Under the pieces are notes generated by a model, which was given only the letters and a program-made list of their open reading frames with translations, made no database searches and was not told where the DNA came from. A program made the translations under genes and the position numbers. 59,962 nucleotides of DNA from Deltaproteobacteria bacterium (lineage in GTDB: Bacteria > Desulfobacterota > Desulfuromonadia > Desulfuromonadales > Geopsychrobacteraceae). Below are positions 41,307 through 55,753 of this stretch, piece by piece. Within the stretch, counting starts at the first letter, position 1; every line of letters begins with the position of its first letter. The DNA is taken from assembly GCA_024280335.1 (NCBI GenBank), contig JAJRQI010000058.1:1-59962 (forward strand), written 5' to 3'.

Positions 41307-41561
41307 CTTATTCTTTCTGCGAGTGTATCCAGATCGATCTGTAGTATGTCATGCAGCTAGCCGTTCAGCAATATTTTTGCACTGCTGAAATTCAGCAAAA
41401 AATAGAATGATTTCAATGGTTGCCGGTGGTTTTGTTGAGTTTTTTTTGCGGCCCTGAAAATTTAATTAACATTAAAGGTTTGCAAGTGGTCATGATTTTT
41501 ACGATGATGTAAACAGTCCCCTTATCTTGAGCAGTTATAATGATAATAGTTTGGTGTTTCT

Positions 41562-43538
41562 ATGAATGACATTCTGCCGCATGTGTTGCTGGTAAATGAA
41601 AATCCCGAAGATTCTCAACAGCTTCGTCAGGTCCTTGACGCTGTTCCGATCCGTTTGACTCTGGTTTCGAGTGGACTTGAAGCCATTGAGGTGTTGCATT
41701 CTTCATCGGTGGATCTGCTGGTAACAGGTATTGCCATCGGTGAATTTGATTGCTGGAGGCTTACCCGTCTGATCCGCTCCGGTATTTATCAAGATCGCTC
41801 TGATATCCCGATCATTGTCATCACCAGACTTTGGTGTGAACGGATTACCGAGGTGACGGTGCGCGAGTTCGGCATCAACCATCTGCTGACATTCGAAGAT
41901 TACGTTCACTTGCCGGAACTGGTGGAACAATGCCTTGCGGACCCTTGCGCTTCGGTTCGTCGGGCGCGGGTTCTGGTTGTTGAAGATCATCCGGATAATG
42001 CCCGCCTGGTCAGGAAAATTCTGCGCGACCGTTTTGTTGTCGATCTGGCAAAGGATGGTCTCGAGGGGCTGACTGCCTGGAAGCAGAACTCTTACGATCT
42101 GGTTCTGCTCGATGTCATGTTACCGAAAATGTCTGGTGAGGATGTACTCGGGGAGATTTTGCATATTTCGCCGGAACAACCGGTGGTGGTGATGACGGCA
42201 CATGGTTCGACGGAATTGGCGGCAAAGTTGATGCGCAGGGGCGCGGTCGATTTTGTCAGCAAACCGTTTCGTGCCGAACAGTTGCGGCAGGTCTGTGAAC
42301 TTGCTGCGCGACGGGATGACTACCTGATCAGTCATGCACAGTTTGCCCGACGTCTCGATTCAGTTCAGCAGTTACAAAACCTGTTGGGCAATATTATCGA
42401 TTCGATGCCGTCGATATTGATTGCGGTTGACAGCCAACTTCGGGTGACTCAGTGGAACCAGCAGGCAGAGGTCACTTTTGCAATTACCGCCGACACGGCA
42501 CTGGGGCGGCCGCTGGAGGAGCTACGGATCGGTCGGATCGATATTGTAGAAGTCAGGCAGGCGATCAGTGAACAGCAGGTCAAACGGTGCATAAGAATTC
42601 CGCAAAAATCCGCTGAGGCTATCCTCTATTTTGACAAAACGATCTACCCTTTAAATGATGATGGTAAAGGGGGGGCCGTTATCCGTTTTGACGATGTAAC
42701 CGAACGGGTGTTGCTGGAAGAGCGGGTTATTAAGGCAAAAAGGATGGCATCCCTCGGTGAGTTGGTCGCCGGAATTGCTCATGAGATCAATAATCCACTG
42801 GCGGGAATTTTACAGAATACTCAGGTGATCCGGAATCGGCTTGATGCGGCAATCAGCAAGAACCGGACTGCGGCTGAAGAGCTGGGTACAACCATGGAGA
42901 CGCTGGAACGTTACCATCAGAACCGAGGGGTGATGTCGCGGCTTGATGCGATTATGGAATCGGGAGCCAGGGCGGCAAAAATTATCGAGACGATGCTCGG
43001 TTTCAGCCATCAGCACAGCACAATTCTAAACCCGGAAAGGCTTGATCTGCTTCTGGATAAATCACTGGAGCTGGCGGCCAGTCATTACAATCTGCTGAAA
43101 AAGTTTGATTTCAGGGCGCTGGAGATCGTGCGTGAATATCATCCGCAACTACCGCGGGTCTGCTGTAATGCCGGACAGATGCAGCAGGTTATTCTGAACC
43201 TGTTGATGAACGGTGCCCAGGCGATGGAGGAAAAAGCCGGTCGCTTGCCGGCCGATGAGAATGAATGCTATCAGGGCCGCTTTATTTTACGGCTGAAGTT
43301 GCTGGATGGGTTTGTGCAGATCGAGATCGAAGATAACGGTCCTGGAATTACCCCAGAGGCGCAACAGCGGATATTCGATCCGTTTTTCACCACCAAGGAG
43401 GTCGGCAATGGGACTGGATTGGGTCTGTTTATCTCTTATTTGATTGTCACCGAAACGCACAATGGAACGATGGAGGTTGAGTCGTCAGCTGGAGAGGGGG
43501 CCAAGTTTACTATCCGTCTGCCGATAGCGGTCGTTTGA
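41562..43538 (+). CDS. Tandem-receiver hybrid histidine kinase
   Basis: A soluble 658-residue kinase. Receiver 1 (about 7-125) lacks the phospho-acceptor: the position of Asp in the usual LLLLD is Gly (LLVTGIA), so it is a pseudo-receiver. Receiver 2 (about 138-250) is normal (VEDHPDN; LVLLDVMLP; VMTAHG). A PAS domain (about 275-385) follows, then HisKA with ELVAGIAHEINNPL and a HATPase domain (N-box NLLMNGAQAM, GNGTGLGLF). No membrane segment. The acetolactate-synthase-like gene follows after 41 bases. Signal and output partner unknown. Confidence 0.9.
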   Translation: MNDILPHVLLVNENPEDSQQLRQVLDAVPIRLTLVSSGLEAIEVLHSSSVDLLVTGIAIGEFDCWRLTRLIRSGIYQDRSDIPIIVITRLWCERITEVTVREFGINHLLTFEDYVHLPELVEQCLADPCASVRRARVLVVEDHPDNARLVRKILRDRFVVDLAKDGLEGLTAWKQNSYDLVLLDVMLPKMSGEDVLGEILHISPEQPVVVMTAHGSTELAAKLMRRGAVDFVSKPFRAEQLRQVCELAARRDDYLISHAQFARRLDSVQQLQNLLGNIIDSMPSILIAVDSQLRVTQWNQQAEVTFAITADTALGRPLEELRIGRIDIVEVRQAISEQQVKRCIRIPQKSAEAILYFDKTIYPLNDDGKGGAVIRFDDVTERVLLEERVIKAKRMASLGELVAGIAHEINNPLAGILQNTQVIRNRLDAAISKNRTAAEELGTTMETLERYHQNRGVMSRLDAIMESGARAAKIIETMLGFSHQHSTILNPERLDLLLDKSLELAASHYNLLKKFDFRALEIVREYHPQLPRVCCNAGQMQQVILNLLMNGAQAMEEKAGRLPADENECYQGRFILRLKLLDGFVQIEIEDNGPGITPEAQQRIFDPFFTTKEVGNGTGLGLFISYLIVTETHNGTMEVESSAGEGAKFTIRLPIAVV

Positions 43539-43579
43539 GTGAAATAAATGATGAAGTATTTTGTTTTCAGGGAGGCAAT

Positions 43580-45367
43580 ATGACAATGACAATTTTTCCA
43601 CCAGCGGTAGAAAATCGACCTGTTCATCAGAGTGATTTTGCTGACTTGGTCGTTGAATATCTGGAACAGGCCGGTGTCGAATATGTATTCGGTGTGCCGG
43701 GCGGGGCGATAGAGCCGCTCTATAATGCCATGGCGCGTAGCGCCCGGCGCGGCGGCTTGCGACCGATCGTTGCGCGCCATGAGTCCGGTGCCGCTTTTAT
43801 GGCGGATGGTTATGCGCGAGAAACCGGCAAGCTTGGTGTCTGCTGCTCAACGACCGGTCCGGGAGCTACCAACCTGATCACCGGTGTGGCTTCGGCATAC
43901 GTGGAAAATAGCCCGCTGCTGGTGATCACTGCGCAGACCGCACTGCACCTGTTCGGCAAACAGACCTTGCAGGAGTCTTCCTGTACAGCGATCAATACGG
44001 TTGCCATGTTTCAGTCCTGCACCCGATATAACAGCCTGATTTCCCACCGCGGCCAGTTGGAGGGAAAGCTGGCTTCTGCCATTGCTGCAACTCAAGGAGT
44101 CCCCTCCGGCCCGGCACATTTAAGTATCCCGATGGATGTCCTTGCGGCACCGCGGCGGCTGCGTCCGAAATCGGCGGTTCGGTTTAAGTCTCTTTTCAAA
44201 CAGCATACTCTGCTCGATAGTGATGCGCTGACTGAATTACTCGAAGAGCTGCTGCAGGCCAGACGCATTGTGCTGCTGCTTGGCGACGGTTGTGGAAAAG
44301 CGATCAAGCAGATCATTGAATTTGCCGAACTGGTTCAGGCGCCGATCATCAGCGGCCCTTCTGGTAAGCGCTGGGTTAATCACCAACACCCTCTGTATCG
44401 GGGCGTGCTCGGCTATGCCAACCACCGCAGCGCCAGAGAAACCTTAGCGGATGAACGTAATGACCTGGTCCTGGCCGTGGGAACCCGGTTCAGCGAGATG
44501 ATCTTTTCCGGCTGGGAAGATAACGAAGAACTAGGCGCCAAGCTTATTCATATCGATGAGAACCTGGAACATCTGGCTTACTCGCCTTTTGCTCGCCTGC
44601 AGGTGTGCGGCACGATCCGTACAGTTTTTCAAACATTGATCGACAGTTTGCGCGCCAAGATAAATGAGGGCGTTCATTGTTTACCTTTGAAGCCGGTGGC
44701 CGTTCCTGCACGGACAGATGGTGTCTCAGCCGAGTTCCCTTATTCACAGATCGCGTTGAACGATCCTGCGGCCTGCGAGTCAGATGCGTTTCCACTTAAA
44801 CCGCAACGGTTGATGCGTGAGTTGTCTGTCCAGCTGCCGGTCGATGCACGGGTATTTGTCGATGCCGGCAACAGTTGGGCCTGGGCGACCCATTATCTGC
44901 ATATGCGCAGCAGCGGTCTCTATCGGGTCGGGATGGGGTATGGGGCAATGACCTGGGCAATCGGTGCCAGTGTCGGCAGCGCCCTCGGATCGCCTGCAAG
45001 TCCGACGATCTGTATCACCGGTGACGGCAGCTTTTTGATGAGTGGTCAGGAGTTGACAGTTGCTGTTGCCGAAAAGCTGCCGGTGGTTTTTGTCATCCTC
45101 AATGACAGTGTCTTGGGGATGGTGATGCACGGCCAGCGACTGGGAGGAGCGGAGCCGGTCGGCTTTGAATTGCCGCCGGTCGATTTTGCCCAGGTCGCGC
45201 GGGCGATGGGTGCAGCAGCAGAAACCGTTCGCAATGTTGCGGAATTGACAGCGCTCGATTTTACCGACATCTGCCGCCGCGAAGGACCGACATTACTCGA
45301 TGTCTATATCGATCCGGAAGAGGTTCCGCCGATGGGGGCGCGGATGAAAACCTTGGGGCGTGTGTAG
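43580..45367 (+). CDS. Acetolactate-synthase-like thiamine diphosphate enzyme
   Basis: A 595-residue member of the IlvB/pyruvate-oxidase group. The N-terminal PYR domain has the cofactor-activating Glu in RHESGAAFMADGYAR; a central FAD/DHAP-like domain follows, and the PP domain carries the ThDP motif GDGSFLMSGQELTVAV...ND. ATG 43580 has GGAGG just upstream. There is no small regulatory subunit or other ilv gene nearby, so true acetolactate synthesis for branched-chain amino acids is not shown. It follows the tandem-receiver kinase and ends at a bidirectional terminator. Confidence 0.85.
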   Translation: MTMTIFPPAVENRPVHQSDFADLVVEYLEQAGVEYVFGVPGGAIEPLYNAMARSARRGGLRPIVARHESGAAFMADGYARETGKLGVCCSTTGPGATNLITGVASAYVENSPLLVITAQTALHLFGKQTLQESSCTAINTVAMFQSCTRYNSLISHRGQLEGKLASAIAATQGVPSGPAHLSIPMDVLAAPRRLRPKSAVRFKSLFKQHTLLDSDALTELLEELLQARRIVLLLGDGCGKAIKQIIEFAELVQAPIISGPSGKRWVNHQHPLYRGVLGYANHRSARETLADERNDLVLAVGTRFSEMIFSGWEDNEELGAKLIHIDENLEHLAYSPFARLQVCGTIRTVFQTLIDSLRAKINEGVHCLPLKPVAVPARTDGVSAEFPYSQIALNDPAACESDAFPLKPQRLMRELSVQLPVDARVFVDAGNSWAWATHYLHMRSSGLYRVGMGYGAMTWAIGASVGSALGSPASPTICITGDGSFLMSGQELTVAVAEKLPVVFVILNDSVLGMVMHGQRLGGAEPVGFELPPVDFAQVARAMGAAAETVRNVAELTALDFTDICRREGPTLLDVYIDPEEVPPMGARMKTLGRV

Positions 45368-45392
45368 GAGTAGAGAGTTGGAATTATATGTG

Positions 45393-45424
45393 CGGCTGAG
45401 TAGAAATACTCAGCCGTTACTTTT
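45393..45424. terminator. Bidirectional terminator between convergent operons
   Basis: CGGCTGAGTA-GAAA-TACTCAGCCG, a perfect 10-bp stem followed by TTACTTTT. It separates the thiamine enzyme gene from the minus-strand citrate-synthase-like operon. Confidence 0.88.
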
Positions 45425-45429
45425 GATTA

Positions 45430-46278
45430 TCAATCAGGTTCTGGAACGACTCGTGGTGGCGGACCCTGGTAGTCGATGTCGTCACAGCGCAAGGGGAGGA
45501 ACGATTCGGCGGGACGCTCTTTGGTATCAAGGTAGCAGGCGGTTATCCCGCTTGCAGTGAGTAGTGTCGATACGTAGTATGCCTCCTGTGGAGTAAATCC
45601 AAAGTCAGACAAAATCGCAGAACCGTAGCCATTTATATTGATGCCTTCATTATGCTTTTCAAGCATGACTTGGTCAATTTTATTGGCCAGTGCCAAATGA
45701 TCGCCTGTGGCCATGTTGTTTTTTAGGGCATATTTTTTTAATATTTCAACCCTCTCATCTCCTTTAGCTATCGGTCGGGCATACCCCATAATATGGGGTT
45801 TCCCACGGTGCTTATTGCACTCCATTTCAATGATTTCAGAGGCAGTATGGCCCGCTTTATGTTGTTTCAGGGCAGCTTGAATAAAGGTTACACCCTCCAA
45901 CATAGGTTTTTGTCCGTAAAGTTTTGAGTCGCCAGCCATAAGCCCTGCTGCTGTTGCCATGACGATTGATGTATTTATCGTTCCACCTAACGCCCCGATT
46001 TGGTTACACCATATTCGAGGATCCGGCCAACTCATGCATATATAGACAGCTTCCATCCAGTCCGCTGTTGACCTTTCAACCAGCCGCCCCGTCGCATGCA
46101 GAGCCATTACCTGAAAGTATGATTTGCTGCCGACAAAATCTTCCAAGAGATTGTAGCCGTGGCTGAAGACACCCTCACCGATTTTCCAGCCACCTTTTCG
46201 GCTGCGTATTGTTCCTCGACAACGATCCCAAAACATTAACTGCTCTGGTGTTTTATTTTTCAATGATATAATCCTCAT
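45430..46278 (-). CDS. Citrate-synthase/citryl-CoA-lyase-fold protein B, active site altered
   Basis: A 282-residue protein resembling the short citryl-CoA lyase/ATP-citrate-lyase C-terminal branch of the citrate synthase family. Landmarks are GALGGTINTSIVMATAAGLM, a GYARPIAKGDERVEIL stretch where the family has GFGHxVxxxDPR, and GININGYGSAILSDFGF where it has INVDGxxAAILSDLG. By hand alignment all three canonical catalytic residues are changed: the His of GxxHGGA to Gln, the His of GFGH to Arg, and the Asp of VDG to Asn. It overlaps its sister gene by 26 bases if ATG 46278 is the start; later starts are possible. Last gene of the operon. Function unknown. Confidence 0.75.
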   Translation of the reverse strand: MRIISLKNKTPEQLMFWDRCRGTIRSRKGGWKIGEGVFSHGYNLLEDFVGSKSYFQVMALHATGRLVERSTADWMEAVYICMSWPDPRIWCNQIGALGGTINTSIVMATAAGLMAGDSKLYGQKPMLEGVTFIQAALKQHKAGHTASEIIEMECNKHRGKPHIMGYARPIAKGDERVEILKKYALKNNMATGDHLALANKIDQVMLEKHNEGININGYGSAILSDFGFTPQEAYYVSTLLTASGITACYLDTKERPAESFLPLRCDDIDYQGPPPRVVPEPD

Positions 46279-47068
46279 CGTTTAAAAAGGGCATGGCAGT
46301 AATAGGCTTATTGGTTAACTCCAGTCCTTGAGCAAATAATCCTGGTGCGCTTAATAATTGAAATAAACCGGCAGCACTGCGTGAATTGAACCCCAAGTCA
46401 ATGAAGGCTGCAGCCGCTATGCCCGGCATCAGCCAGCCCATTTTGTGCTGATCCAGGAAAGACGCAAACTCGTTGCCCCATTTCAGATATTTCCCTGAAC
46501 CCTCTAACGCTAATAGTGAACAGGCTATTTTCCGAGCCAGTTCATCGATTCCTGAAAAGCGACTGCCAAAGCCTGGCGCGGGGTGCCAATCCCCTTGAGT
46601 TGTTGTGTTTTTATGGGAAAGAAGTAAGTCAGCAACTTCACCTGGATCTTTTCGCACATTTCTTTTTATGAACCGCATGGAAAGTTCTACTTCCGCTGCT
46701 CCTAAATGTGTCCCCGCTAAAATTCCCAGTGAAATTGGCAGGATGTGCGTTTTGTCTGTTTTACCTACCCCCGCATTCATTGCGGCCCTTGTCGCCGGAT
46801 GCCTCGGGCCCGGGTTGATGAGCGAGATCATCAAGGTTTCGAGTAGTTCCTTTTGTGGTTCAGTTGGCAATTCAGTATTGAAAAGTAGGAAGAAAACGTC
46901 AACAAAGGTACGTTTTTTCATCAACTCGAAAAGGTTATAGCCGTGGCAACTGCAATCTGCAGCTATATAGGGGTTGTCCGGGCTTGGTATCTCATGCCAG
47001 ATATTCGTAATCTGACGCTCAGCAAATGAATCATCTCTTCGCTGGACTTGTTTATGGTGTTTTTTCAC
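46253..47068 (-). CDS. Citrate-synthase/citryl-CoA-lyase-fold protein A, active site altered
   Basis: A 271-residue sister of protein B. Family landmarks: NTELPTEPQKELLETLM, PGPRHPATRAAMNAGVG, GTHLGAAEVELSM (catalytic-type His kept), APGFGSRFSGIDELARKI (Ser in place of the His of GFGH) and MPGIAAAAFIDLGF (Pro in place of the Asp). It is a complete fold, not a fragment of B. GTG 47068 begins 1 base after the receptor stop and has AGG upstream; GTG 47092 would overlap the receptor. The genes are packed receptor-A-B, suggesting one transcript and perhaps an A/B heterodimer (inference). Confidence 0.75.
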   Translation of the reverse strand: MKKHHKQVQRRDDSFAERQITNIWHEIPSPDNPYIAADCSCHGYNLFELMKKRTFVDVFFLLFNTELPTEPQKELLETLMISLINPGPRHPATRAAMNAGVGKTDKTHILPISLGILAGTHLGAAEVELSMRFIKRNVRKDPGEVADLLLSHKNTTTQGDWHPAPGFGSRFSGIDELARKIACSLLALEGSGKYLKWGNEFASFLDQHKMGWLMPGIAAAAFIDLGFNSRSAAGLFQLLSAPGLFAQGLELTNKPITAMPFLNDEDYIIEK

Positions 47069-47069
47069 G

Positions 47070-49175
47070 TTAAAACCTGTAGAGAAGTTCACACCACAAA
47101 CTTCTTCCTTCTAAAGGGTAGTCATCGATGATTTTTACGCCGTCACTCGGTTCGCGGGCATCTTCATCGAAAATGTTGCGTACCGCTACGGTTAAGTTAG
47201 TGTGATCCATGATCTCTTGGCGATGCAGGGTCAGGTTTACGAGAGTATAATCATCAACCTCTGCGCGAGGATCTGATACTGCTCTGTGTCGGTTTCCAAC
47301 CCAGTTGACTTGTGAGTACAAAGACCATTTCGGGTAGAATTTCCAATTCATACTCAGAAAGGCTTGCTGACCGGGGGCATCTGGGATTTTGTTTTCTGTG
47401 CCAGGGTCCACCGAATATTGCCAAGCATAATTACCAGTGAGTTGAACTTTATCTGTTGTATCCCATTTTGTTTCAAGTTCAAAACCGTAACCTTTTTGGT
47501 CTCGGGCATTTTGCGCGGTGTTGGTCCCTCCACCGGAAGGCACATACTCAATCAGCCCCTCGGCTCTGTATCCATATAGGTTTAACGTTGTTTGTAGATC
47601 GAATGTCAGGCGATAATTAAACGCTAATTCGACGGTGTCGATGGTTTCGGGATTGAGGTTTGGATTCCCCAGGGTTACTGGGTTCTGGTCTGCGAATTGT
47701 TCTTGAAATGAGGGGGCTCTGAATGCCCGGCCATAGAGTAGTTTGGTTGTGAGGTTGTATCGTGTAGACCAGACAAGTGCCAGCCTTGGGTTCAAGGTAC
47801 TGCCAAAATCAGAATAGTGATCGTACCTGACGCCAGTTGTCATTTCCCAGTCCGGAGCGAGCTGCCACTCATCCTGTACTGACAAGTAGTACAAACTGCG
47901 GGATGTGTCAGGGATAGACACAAACGGAGTATTGCTAACATCTGTCATGACTCCCGGAACAACCCCTGCGCCAAAATTTTTAAATTCGCTTGTATCTTGA
48001 TCCTGATATCTGGTTCCTGATCCGAACCGTAAACGATGCTTCAGAAATCCGCTATAGGTCGCTGAGAGATCTAACCCAACTTGCTGAGTATTCCCACTGG
48101 GATTGCCAATAACGCCGTCAGTGAAGGAAGAAAATCCCGATGGATCGGAGCTGGGATAAATTCCTGGTGGATTGAGAACAAGGTAACTATCGGACTTTTG
48201 GTATATATAGCTCAGGTTGAAATTTACCCCCCACCCGTCAGCGATATTGTCATTCGAATATGTAGCATCAAAAAGATACAGATCCTCATCTTGTGAGCCG
48301 ACCGGGTCCAGTGCCAAGGCTCCGCCTGCCCCTACACCGGCATCAAATAAATGCCAGTTCCAAAACCTGAAAAGTAAATTGTCTTTGCTTGCATTGATCA
48401 TTGTATTGGTGACACCGTAATCAGTACTTAACGATCCCGGTGCAAGCGAGAAATCTGTTCCAAAAGTAGAATCCAGTCTGGTCTGGAAATCGCTATTTAT
48501 CGTTCGATCGTTATCTCCGTTGCTGGACTGCCACTCAAAAGTGAAGCCGACATCCCAGCCTGCAAACGAGCTCTTGGAGAGCAGCCAAGCATCCCTTGAG
48601 TTGAAAGAACCGATTCTGCCACCGATCTCAGGCTCAATTTCAGTGGCATCTTTAGTGATGATATTGATGACCCCGGCATAGGCATCGGCACCATTTACGG
48701 CAGATCCGGGCCCGCGAATTACTTCAATTCTGGAAATTGACAAAACCGGTATGCGGAAAAGAGTCGGGTGACTTCCTGTTAATGGCGGGCCGAAGGGGAT
48801 ACCGTTCATCAGCAATAGCACCTGGGGGTTGAAACCGGTGTGAATACCTCGGATAGAAAAAACCGAATCAAGCCGATTGATGGCTGAAACTCCGACATGC
48901 AAGCCAGGGACTGACTCCAGTACTTCGTTCAGGTTTCTCGCCCCCATCGCCTCAATCTGCTTGGCAGTGATCACACTGGCAACCGCTGGGGCCCGGTAAA
49001 CCGGTTTGCTGCTGCCGGTGGCGATACTGACAAATTCCTCATCGCCGTAGAGGTCTTCCATCCCGTCGTCGTTGAACTCCAGCAGGGTATCCAGGGTTTC
49101 AGCGTGGGCTGTCGGCAACTGACCGCAGAGCGTCAGAGCGAGAATCATAAATGAATAATACATAATTTGCGGCAT
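47070..49175 (-). CDS. TonB-dependent outer-membrane receptor
   Basis: A 701-residue receptor with a signal peptide ending near residue 25 (QLPTAHA), a possible TonB box (EEFVSIAT, about 46-53), a plug domain (about 62-175; APAVASVITAKQIEAMGARN, GIPFGPPL, SRIEVIRGPGSAVNGADAYAGVINI) and a beta-barrel ending in an aromatic residue (LLYRF). The layout is closest to vitamin B12/colicin-type or small-ligand receptors. Ligand unknown. AGGAG precedes the ATG. It sits 17 bases after the kinase gene and abuts the citrate-synthase-like pair. Confidence 0.92.
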   Translation of the reverse strand: MPQIMYYSFMILALTLCGQLPTAHAETLDTLLEFNDDGMEDLYGDEEFVSIATGSSKPVYRAPAVASVITAKQIEAMGARNLNEVLESVPGLHVGVSAINRLDSVFSIRGIHTGFNPQVLLLMNGIPFGPPLTGSHPTLFRIPVLSISRIEVIRGPGSAVNGADAYAGVINIITKDATEIEPEIGGRIGSFNSRDAWLLSKSSFAGWDVGFTFEWQSSNGDNDRTINSDFQTRLDSTFGTDFSLAPGSLSTDYGVTNTMINASKDNLLFRFWNWHLFDAGVGAGGALALDPVGSQDEDLYLFDATYSNDNIADGWGVNFNLSYIYQKSDSYLVLNPPGIYPSSDPSGFSSFTDGVIGNPSGNTQQVGLDLSATYSGFLKHRLRFGSGTRYQDQDTSEFKNFGAGVVPGVMTDVSNTPFVSIPDTSRSLYYLSVQDEWQLAPDWEMTTGVRYDHYSDFGSTLNPRLALVWSTRYNLTTKLLYGRAFRAPSFQEQFADQNPVTLGNPNLNPETIDTVELAFNYRLTFDLQTTLNLYGYRAEGLIEYVPSGGGTNTAQNARDQKGYGFELETKWDTTDKVQLTGNYAWQYSVDPGTENKIPDAPGQQAFLSMNWKFYPKWSLYSQVNWVGNRHRAVSDPRAEVDDYTLVNLTLHRQEIMDHTNLTVAVRNIFDEDAREPSDGVKIIDDYPLEGRSLWCELLYRF

Positions 49176-49192
49176 GACTTAGCTCCTGCCTG

Positions 49193-50812
49193 TTACAGGC
49201 TGGTACCGGTCTTCTCGGTAATCCATCGATCATTCCAATCTTTGTTACCATGCTGGTTGGTTGCTGCAATCGGCAAAGGGATGACTATGGTAAAGCTGGA
49301 GCCTTTGCCCGGTTTGCTGCTGACTTCGATTCTTCCGCCCAGCAAATCGCTGAATCGCTTGGTGATTGCCAGGCCCAGCCCGGTGCCTTCGAAGTCGCGG
49401 GTGGTGCTGCCATCGATTTGCCGAAACTCTTCAAAAATGATCTGTTGTTGCTCATTACTCAGGCCGATACCGGTATCGGTGACTTTTATCGTCAGCAACC
49501 GCGCTGTAATCTGCGGGATTACGTTGATGCTGCCGTTTTCGGTGAACTTGCCCGCATTGCTGAGCAGGTTGAGGATAATCTGCAGTAGCTTTTCTTTGTC
49601 GATCTGTATTTCGACCCGATTCTCCAGTGGTGCAATCGTCAGTTGATTGTTGTTCTGACGTAAAATCGGCAAGACCGTTTCACCAGCCTCTTTGAGTAAA
49701 TCACCGATATCGACCGCCTCCAGCTTCAGGTCCATCTTTCCCGATTCAATTTTTGCCATGTCGAGGATACTGTTGATCAAAGCCAGAAGACGCTCGGCAT
49801 TGTGAATAACCAGACCCAGCTCCTCAGAATTCTCGTCCAGCCCCTCAAGCACCAGATCTTCCCTGACGACGTCGGTGTAGCCGATAATTGCTTGCAGCGG
49901 AGTCCGCAGTTCGTGGCTCATGTTGGCGAGGAATTCTGATTTGTGCCGACTGGCAGTCAGTGCCACATCACGCGCCTCAACCAGCTCATGGGTGCGGATA
50001 GCAACTTCGCTTTCTAGCCGTTCGCCATGTTCACGCAGCCGCCGGTCCCGTTCGTTGAGACTGGTCATCAGGTGATTAAAAACGCTGGCCAGCATGGTGA
50101 TCTCTTTCGGGCCGCTCAGCTCGGCGTAAACCCGAGTCCCTTCCTTTTCGTTCTCTTCCATGACGCTGATCAGTTTGAACAGTGGTTGCAGTAATCGATC
50201 GATACCGATATTGACCAAAACCGCCAGGATAATGGCAAAAGAGAGGGCGATTAAAATATTGTTCAGAAAAATATTGACTTGCAGATCCCGCAAAGTTGCT
50301 TTATCCATCACAACATAGGCGTAGCCGAGCAGTTCCACTGTTGGATCATCAAGTTGAAATTGGAAATCGTCCGACTCCGAGTGTATTCCCGTCAGTACCG
50401 GGGCAATGAAATGCCAGGCCTGATGGGTCTGGTCGATCAGCTTGGCGCCGGTCATGGTCAGATTTTCAGTCTTTGGCAACAGCAGTCGATTTTCACCTTT
50501 GACCGAGAGCGGCCTGCGATCGGTCTGAAAGATGCCCGCTTGAATAATGTCGGGGAAACTCATCACTGTTTCCAGCGGTTTTTCGGCATTCTCCGGGCTT
50601 TCATAGATCAATCCCAAGATGCTTTGTGCTGCCAGGGTGTCAGCAATCCGCAGCCCTTGGGCGACCATCTGCTCTGCTGCACGATTGCTGGTGACCCAGG
50701 CAGTGGTTACCGATGCGATCAGCGCCAGGCTGAGAATGCCGAGCGTAACTATGGCCAGCAATCGTCCGCGGAAACCCGATATTTTCATTTGTAGACTGTC
50801 TATAATTCTCAT
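49193..50812 (-). CDS. Membrane histidine kinase, orphan
   Basis: A 539-residue sensor kinase. Transmembrane helix near 18-40, a periplasmic sensor region (about 41-190), second helix near 190-212, HAMP-like segment, coiled coil, HisKA with [19 protein letters not shown], and HATPase with [15 protein letters not shown] and EGTGLGLAI. There is no receiver domain or adjacent response regulator. It lies between a periplasmic binding protein gene (14 bases upstream) and the TonB receptor gene, an order that suggests it senses the bound ligand. Confidence 0.9.
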
Positions 50813-50826
50813 GACTTACGGTCCAG

Positions 50827-51744
50827 TTACCGTGCAGGAAACGTCAGGTTGAACTTTTGTTGCAGTTTGCTGCTGAAGCTTAAGCCCAGGTGAGCAGCTG
50901 TTCGCATATTGACGGCCAGATGTAATCTTTTTAGCGGGATTACCCCCGTTTTTCCTTGTGTTTTTTGTTGTTGGATTGTTTTTGCCAATTCTTCCCCCAG
51001 CCCGAAATTGTCTGGATACATGGAGAAAAGTGCGCCTCGCTGAACGTGGGTCGGCTTGCTGGAGCAGATGACCAGGTTTTTATTCCAGGCCTCCTGAAGC
51101 AGCATCGGCAGGACGATATCCTCGTTTGCCGTCAATTTGTCCAGCGGCAACCAGATCGCTATGCTGCGGCCACGGGCATTTTTTAACAGCTGGCGATACA
51201 GATGCATGGTTTCGCGCATGTCTTCAGCGGCAAACGCTTCCAGTTGCAGGTTGTTTTTTTGTGCCGCTTTTTCTGCGTAGGGGAGTAGCCAGGCATTGGC
51301 TTTGGGAGAGTAGACAACGAAAACCTGCTTGGCATCCGGGACCAGCAGCTTAAGCTGTGAAAAGAGTTGCTCAGGCTCGGTGGACAGGCTGATACCGGAG
51401 ACACCGTTAGGGATCAAGGGGAGGGCGCCGACGATTGTCGGCAGGGGCAGGTCAAGTTGCTGAACGGTCAGATACCCTCGTTTCCCCAGCGCAATAATCC
51501 CGTTGACCTGCGCGGCTTCCAGGCGTGAGCGCAGTTGTATTAAATCATGTTTTTTTGACAGTGAATAGAGGCGGTATTCGGCGGTTTTTTGTGATTGAAT
51601 ACCTTCAAGTATCGTCTGAAATATTGCTTTGTAAGGGCTGGAAACTTCAGGGTAGATAACCGCAATTCGGTCGATGGCCAAAGCGCCGTTGGTAACAGAC
51701 AGCAGCAGAAAACAGCTGACAAAACAGCGTTGCGCAAGACGCAC
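50827..51744 (-). CDS. Periplasmic ABC_sub_bind-type binding protein, orphan
   Basis: A binding protein of the ABC_sub_bind (PF04392-like) group: hydrophobic export signal ending in TNGALA, then two lobes (RIAVIYPEVSSPYKAIFQTI; NGIIALGKRGYLTVQ; AKQVFVVYSPKANAWLL; LFSMYPDNFGLGEELAKT). The start is uncertain. GTG 51744 puts the signal peptide at the N-terminus; the frame stays open to TTG 51900 but has no better ribosome-binding site. No ABC permease or ATPase is adjacent, so it probably delivers ligand information to the kinase next to it. Confidence 0.75.
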   Translation of the reverse strand: MRLAQRCFVSCFLLLSVTNGALAIDRIAVIYPEVSSPYKAIFQTILEGIQSQKTAEYRLYSLSKKHDLIQLRSRLEAAQVNGIIALGKRGYLTVQQLDLPLPTIVGALPLIPNGVSGISLSTEPEQLFSQLKLLVPDAKQVFVVYSPKANAWLLPYAEKAAQKNNLQLEAFAAEDMRETMHLYRQLLKNARGRSIAIWLPLDKLTANEDIVLPMLLQEAWNKNLVICSSKPTHVQRGALFSMYPDNFGLGEELAKTIQQQKTQGKTGVIPLKRLHLAVNMRTAAHLGLSFSSKLQQKFNLTFPAR

Positions 51745-52083
51745 TGCGAGGTTGTTGAAAGTCGCGAACCTGTGACTCCCCCCCCCTGGATCTACATTGC
51801 TATCGTAGGTTTTTGCGATCAATATCTTCACAACAAATGAATGGTTGGCGACAAGGTGCCTGAGGTTGAATGTTGGCTGATATTCAGTAACTGCAATCAA
51901 TTAATGAGCTGTTAAAATCCCACAGACCACCCGCAAGGTCAACTTTTTTGTCGACTCCTATTCAAGTGTTTTGGTGTAATTCAACGTGTTGCAGATTTGT
52001 GAATATCGAATAAGAATTGATCAATCTGTTGCAGTAGGTTAGGCTTTTGCGGACGGTTTCTCGATTCTTGCCTGGGTTGTTGC

Positions 52084-52611
52084 ATGACGGTTACAAAAAA
52101 TTTGCAGAATCAGCGCGGTGTCGCCTTGATTTTTGTTCTGGTTGCAGTGACTTTGCTCGGCTTGATGGCCGGAATTGCCGGCAGCAGCTGGCAAACCATT
52201 GTCCAACGGGCCAAGGAGCAGGAGCTGCTCTGGCGTGGCGGGCAGATTCGCAAAGCTATCGGCTTCTATTATAAGACCGCCCACGGCGGTGCTAAATCTG
52301 GTTATCCCGCTAGCTTTGAACAATTACTGAAAGATCCGCGCTTTATATCAACCAAGCGCCATCTGCGCCGCCATTATTTAGATCCGATCACCGGGGACGA
52401 TTGGGAACTGATTAAAACGCCGAACGGCCGTATCAAGGGCGTCCGCAGCCACAGTGACAAAGAACCGTTTAAAAAAGATAATTTCAGTAAAGAAAACGAG
52501 AAGTTAGTCGGTAAAATGAAGTATGCCGAATGGGAATTTATTTACCTTCCCAAAAAACAGCAAAAAACCTCAACGCAGCCACCGGGTCCCGTGATCAAAC
52601 CGGTAAATTAA
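52084..52611 (+). CDS. Type II secretion/type IV pilin-like pseudopilin
   Basis: A 175-residue protein with a prepilin leader: QRG followed by VALIFVLVAVTLLGLMAG. Cleavage would be after the Gly at about residue 12. Position +5 of the mature protein is Phe, where most pilins have Glu. The rest resembles GspG-like pseudopilins (GYPASFEQLLKDPR; LDPITGDDWELI). A basic, proline-rich tail follows. No other secretion genes adjoin it; PilD at 0.4 kb could process it. Loss of Glu5 is seen in some minor pseudopilins that cap the filament. Confidence 0.85.
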   Translation: MTVTKNLQNQRGVALIFVLVAVTLLGLMAGIAGSSWQTIVQRAKEQELLWRGGQIRKAIGFYYKTAHGGAKSGYPASFEQLLKDPRFISTKRHLRRHYLDPITGDDWELIKTPNGRIKGVRSHSDKEPFKKDNFSKENEKLVGKMKYAEWEFIYLPKKQQKTSTQPPGPVIKPVN

Positions 52612-52676
52612 AACGGTTTGCCGCTACTCCCGGGAGGGGCATTGTTATCTCCACTTGGTATCTCTACAGCTTGTAC

Positions 52677-52955
52677 CTAAGCCGGAAGCTGAAAGTCGGT
52701 ACCGGCAAACTGAATATTGCTGGAGTCGTTTGCTCGCGGTGGTGAAACCGCGTGAACGCCGCCGCAGTGCGGACAGCAGCCGACGAATGTCGTCAGCATG
52801 AATGCTTCGTTACAGCCCTGACAGTTGGTCTGCAGCGCGTTGGGTAGCGGCTTCTGGCGCAACACCCCGCCGTGGGCCTGATAAACGAATTCAACCAATT
52901 CCCTGCCTTCTGCAAAGGGTCCAGCCCCTGATCCGCAACTTGAACAACCTGCCAT
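52677..52955 (-). CDS. Small cysteine-rich zinc-ribbon-like protein
   Basis: A 92-residue protein with CSSCGSG at its N-terminus (C4, C7) and later CQGC and CCPHCGGVH, three CxxC-type pairs suitable for zinc or iron-sulfur binding. No signal peptide. GGAG lies 6 bases before the ATG on the minus strand. I recognise no named family. The full-length frame, the spacing of the cysteines and the ribosome-binding site support a real gene. Confidence 0.7.
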   Translation of the reverse strand: MAGCSSCGSGAGPFAEGRELVEFVYQAHGGVLRQKPLPNALQTNCQGCNEAFMLTTFVGCCPHCGGVHAVSPPRANDSSNIQFAGTDFQLPA

Positions 52956-53028
52956 ATCTCGCTCCTGTGATTGTGTTGTTGGTGAAGCCGGACTATAGCG
53001 ATTGTTTCTGTTGTTGCCGTTGACCTAA

Positions 53029-53054
53029 ATCAAAACCGGGCCGGAAACTCCGGC
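53029..53054 (-). terminator. Possible terminator of the M20 peptidase gene
   Basis: GCCGGA-AAC-TCCGGC (53040-53054) read on the minus strand is followed by CCGGTTTTGATTT. Short stem and mixed U-run; starts 19 bases beyond the stop codon. Confidence 0.5.
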
Positions 53055-53072
53055 TGCGGAGAAGTGAAAAAG

Positions 53073-54206
53073 TTACGCCCGCCGGATGATTTCGACCAGC
53101 AGTTCACTGACCTTGACCATATCTTCAACGCTGACCTGTTCATTGACCGTATGTACCTTGTCCATGCCGGTCGCTAGAATGACCATTTCGATCCCTTTGC
53201 CGTTGTAGATGTTTGCATCGGAACCGCCGCCTGCCGCGCGAATTTCCTGTGGCCGATCAAGGGCCTCGCCGGCAGCTCGGATGATCTGCAGGATCTCGGC
53301 ATTCTCATCGACCTGCATGATCGGAAAATCCTCGTGCAGTTCCAGGGACATGGCCGCACGCCTGGTTTCACCTTTGATGGTGATGGTTGCACGAGCAACT
53401 TCCTCTTCCAGAGCCCTGACCATCAATTCGGTCTGTCGGCGCAGCTTTTTAACGTCATGGCTGCGGATTTCACCCTTTAGGCTGACCTTGCGGGGCACAA
53501 TGTTGGAGGCCAGACCACCTTCGATTGTGCCGATATTGGCGGTAGTTTCATGATCGATGCGCCCGAGCGGCATCCTGGCGATCGCATTGCAGGCAATCTG
53601 GATCGCCGAAATCCCTTCTTCCGGGCAGACTCCGGCGTGAGCCTCGAGACCGAAGATGTCGACCTTGAAGCGGTTGGCGGCCGGTGCGCGATTGATGACG
53701 ATATCGATGCCGGTGGTGTCGAGAGCCACGCCGCGCTTTGCCGACAGGCGGGAAAAGTCGAGCTGCTTGGCACCGAGCAGACCCTGCTCTTCGCAGACGG
53801 TGACAACAACTTCCAGTGGAACGTGGGGGATCTGCTGCTCTTTAAGTACTTCAAGCGCTTCGAGAATTTCGACGATGCCGGCTTTATCATCGGCACCGAG
53901 AATGGTTTCTCCGGCACTGGTGAAGATCCCATCCTTCAGCACCGGTTGCACATTCTCGGCAGGCGTGACGGTATCCATATGTACTGAGAGGAGCAGCGGA
54001 TCGCCGGCTTTCCGGCCCTTGAGCCGGACAATCATATTGCCGCGCTCGCTGCCGATTTTTGGCCCGGCATCGTCGTATTCAACGCTGGCGCCCAGTTTTT
54101 CAAAGCGCTGTTGCAGATAGTCAGCGATTGCCGCTTCTTTGAAGGATGGGCTGTCAATTTCAGCCTGGCGAATAAATTCAGCGCAGACGCGTTGTCTGTC
54201 GATCAT
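53073..54206 (-). CDS. M20-family aminopeptidase (tripeptidase T-like)
   Basis: Cytoplasmic dizinc peptidase, 377 residues from ATG 54206 (GGAG 6 bases upstream). Zinc and catalytic residues are in LSVHMDTVTPAE, ILGADDKAGI, VTVCEEQGLLGA, ALDTTG and near the C-terminal MDKVHTVNEQ. The dimerisation domain (AHAGVCPEEGISAI) is intact. In-frame codons upstream to 54263 are not needed. Monocistronic; probable peptide recycling. Confidence 0.92.
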   Translation of the reverse strand: MIDRQRVCAEFIRQAEIDSPSFKEAAIADYLQQRFEKLGASVEYDDAGPKIGSERGNMIVRLKGRKAGDPLLLSVHMDTVTPAENVQPVLKDGIFTSAGETILGADDKAGIVEILEALEVLKEQQIPHVPLEVVVTVCEEQGLLGAKQLDFSRLSAKRGVALDTTGIDIVINRAPAANRFKVDIFGLEAHAGVCPEEGISAIQIACNAIARMPLGRIDHETTANIGTIEGGLASNIVPRKVSLKGEIRSHDVKKLRRQTELMVRALEEEVARATITIKGETRRAAMSLELHEDFPIMQVDENAEILQIIRAAGEALDRPQEIRAAGGGSDANIYNGKGIEMVILATGMDKVHTVNEQVSVEDMVKVSELLVEIIRRA

Positions 54207-54391
54207 AGACTGTCTCCTTTTGTTCACGGATTGATCAACATCACATGTTAGCTGGAACAACAAGCAGTAGCAATCTTTTCAGGGTACAGTTTTTTTGGAC
54301 ATGGGCAGTGCTGTAATGTTATGATCCGTTAATTCATAGTTGGCATCCGGCGGTAATTTCAGGGCGTGACGCTCGCATCTAGTTCTCTTTT

Positions 54392-55753
54392 ATGGTTTTT
54401 TTGATGAGTCTAAATCAAGATTTTCAACCACCTCGCTCCTTTCATGGCGCTCCTCCCCGACATCCGAAGCGGCGCTATTTCTCTATTGCTGCCGTACTGT
54501 TGATTGCTGTTGTTGCCATTGCGGTATTGTTGGCCGGCGACCCGTCTCCAGAACTGGAGGCGCGCACCACGCCGGTGGAAATTACCGCTCCGGTACCGGT
54601 CGTGCCACCGGCACCGGTCCGGCGCGAAATACAGAAGGTGGTGCAGTCGGGTGAAACCATCACTGCTCTGCTGGGGGAATATTTCACGCCGAAGGAAATT
54701 CACAATCTCAATATCCAGAGTCGTGAGGTTTTTCCCTTTACAAAAATCTGTGCCGGTCAACCGTATCGGATCTGTACCAGCGATGGTGAATTCGAGAGTT
54801 GCATTTACGAGATTGACGACGAAGAACAACTGATTATCAGTCGTGATCCTGAAGAGACACGGATGGAGCGATTGCCGATTCTTTACGATGTGCAAACGGA
54901 ACTGGTGCAGGGAACCATCAAAACCAGCCTGTTTGATGCGGTAACTGAAATCGGTGAAAATCCCGAACTTGCGATTGCCCTGGCAGATATCTTTGCCTGG
55001 GATATCGATTTTATTCTCGATTTGCGGGTCGGCGATACCTTTCAGGCGTTGGTCGAAAAACGTTTTCGCGAAGGAAAATCGGCTGGTTACGGCAAGGTTC
55101 TAGCTGCTGAATTTATCAACCGGAAAAAGGTTTTTCGGGCGATTCTCTATCAGGATGGCAAACAAAAAGCCTCCTATTATGATGAAGAGGGGCAGAATGT
55201 CCGCAAGGCTTTCCTGCGGGCGCCGCTCTCCTTTTCACGGATCTCATCCGGTTTCAGCATGAAGCGTTTTCACCCGATCACCAAAACCTGGAAATCCCAT
55301 CCCGCCATCGATTATGCCGCTGCCCCGGGGACGCCGATCAAGACAGTCGGTGATGGTTCCATCACCCGGATCGGTTACACCAAAGGCAACGGCAATTTCA
55401 TTGAAGTGCGCCATAGCAACGGTTACAAAACCCTCTACCTGCACATGAAGGGCTTTGCCCGCGGGATGAAGCGAGGGAAGCGCATCTCGCAGGGGAAAGT
55501 CATCGGTTACGTCGGCAGCACCGGTCTGGCGACCGGCCCCCATCTTTGTTTCCGGATGAAGAAAAATGGCCGGCCGGTCAATCCCTATCGGGTCAAGGTG
55601 CCGGCGGCTAAAGCGGTCGCAAAAGCAAATATGACCGCTTTCACAAGCCTTGCGGCACCGCTACTGGCACGTTTTGAAGAAAGCCGCGCTGCTGAAAAGT
55701 TGGCCAAAGCAGAGCAGCAGGAAGGTGTATCGGTTATTGAGTCGGCCCAATGA
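54392..55753 (+). CDS. M23-family (LytM) cell-wall endopeptidase-like protein
   Basis: A 453-residue membrane-anchored murein hydrolase-like protein. One transmembrane helix (about 30-48), proline-rich linker, LysM/OapA-like region (about 80-130), then the M23 domain (about 295-395): HPAIDYAA gives the HxxxD zinc pair, LYLHMKGF the catalytic His, and GPHLCF stands where HxH is usual. The third zinc ligand is therefore Cys (codon TGT); zinc may still bind, but activity is uncertain. It overlaps the AOR gene by 4 bases. A second ATG at 54404 is possible. Confidence 0.88.
   Translation: MVFLMSLNQDFQPPRSFHGAPPRHPKRRYFSIAAVLLIAVVAIAVLLAGDPSPELEARTTPVEITAPVPVVPPAPVRREIQKVVQSGETITALLGEYFTPKEIHNLNIQSREVFPFTKICAGQPYRICTSDGEFESCIYEIDDEEQLIISRDPEETRMERLPILYDVQTELVQGTIKTSLFDAVTEIGENPELAIALADIFAWDIDFILDLRVGDTFQALVEKRFREGKSAGYGKVLAAEFINRKKVFRAILYQDGKQKASYYDEEGQNVRKAFLRAPLSFSRISSGFSMKRFHPITKTWKSHPAIDYAAAPGTPIKTVGDGSITRIGYTKGNGNFIEVRHSNGYKTLYLHMKGFARGMKRGKRISQGKVIGYVGSTGLATGPHLCFRMKKNGRPVNPYRVKVPAAKAVAKANMTAFTSLAAPLLARFEESRAAEKLAKAEQQEGVSVIESAQ

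Follow-up and report, generated by a model that had tools for sequence, protein, structure and literature searches.

How a periplasmic binding protein, a histidine kinase and an outer-membrane receptor came to share an operon with two small proteins of the citrate-synthase fold is the question raised by a contig (JAJRQI010000058.1) from a bacterium of the Desulfuromonadales. The window, that is, the whole stretch of DNA analysed, comprises this entire contig of 59,962 bases from a 3.59 Mb genome in 72 contigs. Its minus strand encodes, in order of transcription, an ABC_sub_bind periplasmic binding protein (SBP; 50827–51744), a membrane histidine kinase (49193–50812), a TonB-dependent outer-membrane receptor (47070–49175) and two citryl-coenzyme A (CoA)-lyase-fold proteins, CSa (46253–47068) and CSb (45430–46278). 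The first four genes are separated by 14, 17 and 1 base, and the last two overlap by 26 bases. A preliminary description of this DNA had reported exactly this layout and had proposed a five-gene ligand-uptake operon, for example for a carboxylate metallophore. On sequence grounds the five genes are a real operon, and their odd linkage is its most conserved feature. The conserved unit nevertheless exceeds five genes: judged by conserved neighbourhoods, a thiamine diphosphate (ThDP)-dependent enzyme encoded convergently to the operon (43535–45367, plus strand; an open reading frame (ORF) whose start codon is provisional) and a receiver-receiver-PAS-HisKA-HATPase_c protein (41562–43538, plus strand; domains by Pfam), whose gene overlaps the start of the ThDP ORF, belong to it as well. 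The best explanation is that seven genes form a small-molecule system, in place of the five-gene import operon first proposed. In the reading that we favour, at a probability of about 0.5, the ThDP enzyme, CSa and CSb would synthesize a keto-acid-derived molecule that is then sensed by the receptor and the sensory proteins.

The linkage was followed through three samples of genomes. A scan for CSb in 84,980 species genomes found 117 relatives, the best 80 of these 117 loci being used; in a phylum sample 4 of 297 genomes were positive, the present one included, and a class sample built around the Motiliproteus genome of locus L050 contained 42 positives among 369 genomes, yielding 41 neighbourhoods, as the remaining positive was the genome of L050 itself. 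Together 124 loci were compared, of which five duplicate pairs were merged to leave 119 distinct loci, 89 near and 30 distant. A partner was counted if it lay no more than 7 kb from CSb, and only loci whose sequence extended 6 kb or further to each side were used (53 near, 23 distant). The near loci contained CSa in all 53 cases, a TonB receptor in 51, the ThDP enzyme in 45, a periplasmic sensor in 41, a kinase or GGDEF/EAL protein in 37 and a short-chain dehydrogenase (SDR) in 13. The distant tier provides an out-of-sample test, because the search profiles were built from near-tier sequences only, and there the corresponding counts among 23 loci were 22 for CSa, 20 for the receptor, 22 for the ThDP enzyme, 15 for a sensor, 17 for a kinase or GGDEF/EAL protein and none for SDR. 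Counted over all loci regardless of contig ends, the receptor was found in 83 of 89 near and 21 of 30 distant loci and the ThDP enzyme in 67 of 89 and 27 of 30. A looser count over 44 loci with 7 kb on both sides, taking the locus as a whole (receptor 42, ThDP enzyme 40, sensor 37, kinase, cyclic di-GMP (c-di-GMP) or receiver protein 42), is superseded by the stricter 7-kb count. Of the 28 distant loci in the class sample, 25 have the ThDP gene as the first recognised neighbour upstream of CSa, in the same orientation (one of them a fusion, L141), and 19 have a receptor as the first recognised neighbour downstream of CSb. The preliminary description had called for this neighbourhood search and would have given up its idea had homologues of the pair almost never adjoined receptor or kinase genes; the opposite was observed, the pair being tied to both receptor and sensor genes.

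That the two halves of the cluster are accidental neighbours with unrelated functions is barely credible. The operon of one genome can be an accident, and in this genome the ThDP gene does lie on the other strand; yet the linkage persists in 119 distinct loci with varied gene orders and flanks, and it is accompanied by co-distribution, by two gene fusions and by the lack of any such company at five intact citryl-CoA lyase loci. In L141 the ThDP enzyme and CSa form a single ORF of 886 residues, and in L086 CSb and an SDR form one of 529 residues; Pfam names only the ThDP and SDR parts of these fusions, the CSa and CSb parts being recognised by the profiles built here. The control loci, taken from the same bacterial family and including L034, gave no match to receptor, ThDP enzyme, binding protein, YfiR, PhnD, GGDEF or EAL, and two of the five gave weak kinase-core matches.

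Close relatives of the genome tell the same story on a smaller scale. Among 60 genomes searched (its own and 59 relatives), full-length CSa occurs in its own genome and in 10 of the 59 relatives, with a contig-end piece in one more; other CSa matches in the 60 genomes were citryl-CoA-lyase-type proteins of 27–29% identity or CSb paralogues. The five-gene order is identical in nine of the ten relatives, the contig of the tenth beginning inside the receptor gene, and the convergent ThDP gene is present in nine of the ten, once cut by a contig end and with two genes between. The preliminary description gave the five genes correctly; it missed the double-receiver protein and the ThDP enzyme, which is nearly as regular a partner as the receptor (45 of 53 near loci, 22 of 23 distant ones) and in one case is fused to CSa. 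Four of the ten relatives belong to other families of the order and have differing outer flanks. Across the 59 relatives, CSa and a ThDP orthologue (at least 59% identity) occur together in 9 genomes, CSa alone in 2, the ThDP enzyme alone in 2, and 46 have neither; with the binding protein in place of the ThDP enzyme, the corresponding numbers are 9, 2, 3 and 45. Fisher tests gave 2.2e-7 and 8.6e-7, respectively, uncorrected for kinship. For these tables, a genome with a 40-residue CSa piece at a contig end (G005) was scored CSa-positive, one with a ThDP piece at a contig end (G008) was scored ThDP-negative, and one with a 46% ThDP match containing one stop (G039) was excluded from the ThDP set. 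On the outer side of the cluster in the window, an M20-type peptidase and its neighbouring gene (53073–54263, minus strand, and 54392–55753, plus strand) are ordinary flanks, which border the cluster in members of the family and do not do so in the other families of the order. No RNA family reached its gathering threshold in 40000–54500.

According to record titles, carriers of the cluster include Desulfuromonadales (with Desulfuromonadaceae, Malonomonas rubra and Desulfuromusa kysingii), Desulfobulbaceae, Gallionellaceae, Magnetococcales, Cellvibrio, Teredinibacter and others. No relative of CSa was found in the viral contigs searched, and no match for CSb in the plasmids searched. A contig deposited as a Chloroflexi metagenome-assembled genome (L040) encodes a CSb 81% identical to the Desulfuromonadales one, with the same ThDP neighbour, and is probably misbinned. 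Another locus (L132, genome G390) is probably a decaying copy, because its ThDP, receptor and CSb genes are each split over several ORFs.

What kind of proteins are CSa and CSb? CSa, whose gene has a GTG start, matches the Pfam family Citrate_synt weakly and under the cut-off (0.0016), and CSb matches no Pfam family; the best NCBIfam matches of both are citryl-CoA lyase models (3e-18 and 4.7e-17), all far under the cut-offs. Profiles built from 75 CSa and 81 CSb sequences gave citryl-CoA lyase 6hxp as their leading PDB hit (4.2e-28 and 1e-16), and Foldseek searches with AlphaFold models (mean pLDDT, the predicted local distance difference test, 90.9 for CSa and 90.3 for CSb) returned the same entry as top match, with a TMq of 0.73 and 0.75. 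These profiles and predicted models place the two proteins as paralogues in the citryl-CoA-lyase branch of the citrate-synthase fold, in agreement with the fold originally assigned to them.

For residue counts over the 75 CSa and 81 CSb, a MAFFT alignment (a sample of the rows) set the two families beside the citrate synthase encoded by the genome itself and five intact citryl-CoA lyases belonging to the same bacterial family, the catalytic residues being those that correspond to D375, H320 (of the GxGH motif) and H274 of citrate synthase. The catalytic Asp, present in the five lyases, is found in none of 75 CSa (Thr in 45, Pro in 25, others in 5) and none of 81 CSb (Asn in 46, Ala in 15, Gly in 9, others in 11). 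The GxGH His is likewise missing from every row, replaced by Ser in 47 of 75 CSa and by Ala in 52 of 81 CSb. An early HMMER alignment had suggested that CSa lost all three catalytic residues; this was rejected, and only the Asp and the GxGH His are claimed as lost, because the MAFFT alignment shows 50 of 75 CSa retaining the H274-type His (19 have Tyr), compared with 1 of 81 CSb. Other positions are invariant: R89 and H90 in 75 of 75 CSa, and C91, D117, Y121, R168, R176, N214, C265, D267 and R276 in 81 of 81 CSb. In the distant clade, R89 is kept in all 28 CSa rows and H90 in under 90% of them; among its 31 CSb rows, R168, R176, N214 and C248 are each kept in 30 and R276 in 29, while C91, D117, C265 and D267 each fall under 90%. 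Because the catalytic Asp and GxGH His are lost while other residues are invariant, the pair would seem to have a changed active site rather than to be decaying.

The same losses could mean that CSa and CSb are not enzymes at all and serve as cytoplasmic binding or regulatory proteins, for instance by detecting acyl-CoA, or what the ThDP enzyme makes, and adjusting the adjoining signalling genes; the constant company of signalling genes would fit such a role. The many invariant polar residues (R89 and H90 of CSa; R168, R176, N214, R276 and others of CSb) and the fusions to enzymes, namely the ThDP enzyme and SDR, suit catalysis better, and a purely regulatory pair appears improbable.

The closest solved relatives of the ThDP enzyme are BbmA (292 bits) and CsmA (265 bits), followed by acetolactate synthase I (213 bits), and its RHE and GDG..N motifs are intact. 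Judged by its nearest relatives, which with CybE are the acyloin synthases of furanolide-like pathways, it would be of the acyloin-forming CybE type and is predicted to join two alpha-keto acids. Passages of PMC12395478 describe CybE as carrying out the acyloin condensation of two keto acids to a carboxylic-acid intermediate of cyanobacterin and cite structural work on two CybE homologues, one of the enzymes being spelled BpmA there; in excerpts of PMC8777810 and PMC13288894, the next furanolide enzyme, CybF, is a 3-oxoacyl-acyl carrier protein-synthase-type protein. A furanolide pathway of the known type was considered and rejected: the ThDP enzyme suits its first step, but CybF is a protein of another type, and none like it was found among the recurrent neighbour families identified (genes of single loci being only partly scanned); CSa and CSb stand where CybF would be. 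The locus is therefore not a furanolide cluster in the known sense. Families were called recurrent when present in at least 4 of the 124 loci. Six of nine recurrent unlabelled clusters were scanned with Pfam; two of the others (L104:9124-9687 and L140:6873-8807) lie opposite CSa or ThDP genes, overlapping them on the other strand, and the third is L081:3729-4061. ORF picking was greedy, and some genes were missed.

Pfam agrees with the identities first proposed for the binding protein, the kinase and the receptor. The binding protein has a GTG start, a signal-peptide-like beginning (by eye) and an ABC_sub_bind match of 9.9e-12; its nearest PDB entries, 3lkv and 3lft, are weak (about 2e-4), and no ABC importer permease or ATPase was found among the nine window proteins scanned around it. 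The kinase combines a HisKA domain with intact H-box and a HATPase_c domain with weak sCache_4 and HAMP matches and has no receiver domain. It had been described as a kinase without regulator, which is true of the operon itself, though the double-receiver protein at 41562–43538 is encoded nearby. The first part of that protein is 50% identical over 311 residues to a receiver-receiver-PAS-GGDEF-EAL protein of relatives, in whose place it stands. The GGDEF-EAL version was matched as one ORF in 29 of 80 loci and confirmed by Pfam in L039 and L060, with GGDEF and EAL motifs intact in L039. The receptor shows plug and barrel domains (Pfam), and its top PDB match is the colicin I receptor Cir.

Across loci the sensors are interchangeable. 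In addition to ABC_sub_bind proteins, a YfiR-like (DUF4154) domain is found fused to a kinase in Cellvibrio mixtus and encoded alone near a GGDEF-EAL gene in L061, several Desulfobulbaceae loci encode a PhnD-like protein (labelled by eye), and in a Gallionella locus the binding protein adjoins an sCache-HAMP-PAS-GGDEF-EAL protein. Histidine kinases or GGDEF-EAL proteins are the likely outputs of these sensors. Least variable within the gene set are the enzymes and the receptor; since the sensors swap around this more constant core, we infer that the core is what characterises the system, with a ligand that is detected in the periplasm.

These features suggest a working model for the synthesis and sensing of a small molecule. 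The ThDP enzyme would join two alpha-keto acids to an alpha-hydroxy-beta-keto acid. CSa and CSb, which probably form a heteromer whose active site has been rebuilt on the citryl-CoA-lyase fold, would then process this acid, possibly using an acyl-CoA. A dehydrogenase, a sulfotransferase or a methyltransferase may modify the product in certain species; presumably after export, the product would enter the periplasm from outside the cell through the TonB receptor. There the binding protein (elsewhere a YfiR-like or PhnD-like protein) would recognise it and control the kinase; putative phosphotransfer by way of the double-receiver protein would extend this control to c-di-GMP in relatives or to a second kinase here.

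The main rival is uptake and breakdown, in which a compound from the environment enters through the receptor, the genes are switched on by the binding protein together with the kinase, and CSa, CSb and the ThDP enzyme, working in the lyase direction, split the compound for carbon. TonB receptors and binding proteins usually serve uptake, the best-known members of the pair's fold here are lyases, and ThDP enzymes can also cleave carbon–carbon bonds. An uptake route would nevertheless be expected to resemble L034 (8138–13904), where an intact citryl-CoA lyase homologue lies beside a type III CoA-transferase, an AbrB-family membrane-type protein and TctCBA; by its gene content, this appears to be a catabolic citryl-CoA-lyase-like locus with a carboxylate transporter (TctABC) and illustrates what a catabolic locus would look like. 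(L035–L038 show gene lengths in an order similar to L034, the only one of them scanned.) Around the CSa/CSb pair, the recurrent families identified include no constant inner-membrane importer, the only transporter-type clusters met being an oligopeptide-type ABC ATPase (6 of 124 loci) and an ABCF-like protein (4 of 124), and no CoA ligase or CoA-transferase. Tailoring-type genes do recur in subsets: SDR in 18, a sulfotransferase in 6 and an O-methyltransferase in 4 of the 124 loci. It is because of the missing importer, CoA ligase and CoA-transferase, the contrast with L034 and the recurrent tailoring-type genes that synthesis is favoured, and breakdown is considered rather unlikely.

The sulfotransferase-family gene was found at L098:11469-12587 and in five further loci; in five of the six it lies on the opposite strand, between CSb and the region of the ThDP gene, several of these loci being of Desulfobulbaceae type. 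Three Magnetococcales loci (L099, L107 and L113) have ThDP, CSa and CSb genes without a TonB receptor, beside a protein of 1727–1771 residues that resembles a multidomain kinase (by eye); this group also has a receiver-LuxR-type regulator (L107), an FkbH-like protein and a MaoC-SDR-like fusion, the latter labelled by eye.

Several observations weigh against the synthesis and sensing of a small molecule. The same genes would equally serve uptake and breakdown, and no dedicated exporter was seen at the loci compared. Of the 53 near loci that extend at least 6 kb to either side, 8 showed no ThDP gene close to the pair, 2 no receptor (Magnetococcales L099 and L113), 12 no sensor of any of the three kinds within 7 kb, and 16 no kinase or GGDEF/EAL protein within 7 kb. 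One locus (L149) has a CSb-like gene alone, and another (L120) combines the CSa–CSb pair with a kinase and lacks both receptor and ThDP gene. The ThDP gene of the window runs convergently to the operon and lies outside it, and the GGDEF-EAL protein is absent at this locus, so that a c-di-GMP output is not directly applicable to this genome. Many loci come from metagenome assemblies, in which fusions and missing genes can be artefacts.

The carboxylate metallophore put forward as an example in the preliminary description, taken here as a citrate-like chelator built by CSa and CSb and taken up by the receptor, fared poorly. TonB receptors commonly carry metal chelates, and the receptor resembles siderophore and heme receptors in NCBIfam, with all matches under the cut-off. 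The Asp and GxGH His of citrate synthase are missing from the pair, however; no synthetase of the nonribosomal peptide synthetase (NRPS) or NRPS-independent siderophore (NIS) type was found among the nine window proteins or the recurrent neighbour families identified; and no E. coli-type Fur box with at most three mismatches occurs in the window, which is a weak test. A metallophore is accordingly very improbable.

Parts of the proposed small-molecule system resemble systems already described. The closest match in fold and sequence for CSa and CSb is citryl-CoA lyase (6hxp of Hydrogenobacter and the corresponding module of ATP-citrate lyase), from which they differ in being two obligate-looking paralogues side by side, in lacking the catalytic Asp and GxGH His and in their gene company. 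In LuxPQ and TorTS a binding-protein gene likewise adjoins a kinase gene with no transporter genes beside it; here this layout is coupled to a TonB receptor and the ThDP/CSa/CSb module, and the binding protein is of the ABC_sub_bind type. By analogy with LuxPQ, contact between the binding protein and the kinase and ligand-controlled kinase activity are predicted. Periplasmic control of c-di-GMP by YfiR/YfiN is echoed by the YfiR-like domain of the C. mixtus kinase and of L061, but the window uses an ABC_sub_bind protein, and neither a receptor nor an enzyme module of this kind is known to belong to the Yfi system. Self-sensed siderophore systems resemble the present one in the idea that a molecule made by the cell is taken back through a TonB receptor of its own and sensed by a regulator; here no siderophore synthetase was recognised, and two-component and c-di-GMP proteins rather than sigma/anti-sigma proteins occur in the loci scanned. 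A literature search found no description of the gene set, subscription literature lying largely outside that search; passages on citryl-CoA lyase that it turned up deal with other subjects. The coupling of a metabolite module to a receptor and two-component sensing is of a known kind, and there is a real chance that the chemistry is new.

A more specific proposal can be advanced only tentatively, namely that this is a self-sensing system widespread in Gram-negative bacteria, in which an acyloin synthase, together with a repurposed heteromeric pair on the citryl-CoA-lyase fold, produces a signal of a new class, possibly resembling acyloins or butenolides, that is recaptured by a dedicated TonB receptor and read by interchangeable periplasmic sensors setting c-di-GMP or a phosphorelay. 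Whatever the reading, the pair adds to the citryl-CoA-lyase fold a paired branch without two classical active-site residues, and a conserved gene set connects an enzyme module that forms a metabolite with a receptor in the outer membrane and with signalling inside the cell. Should the product prove to be a signal, the cluster would provide a direct route to a communication or cue molecule of sediment and biofilm bacteria; should the self-sensing proposal hold, it would represent a new class of autoinducer and a new reaction for the citrate-synthase fold.

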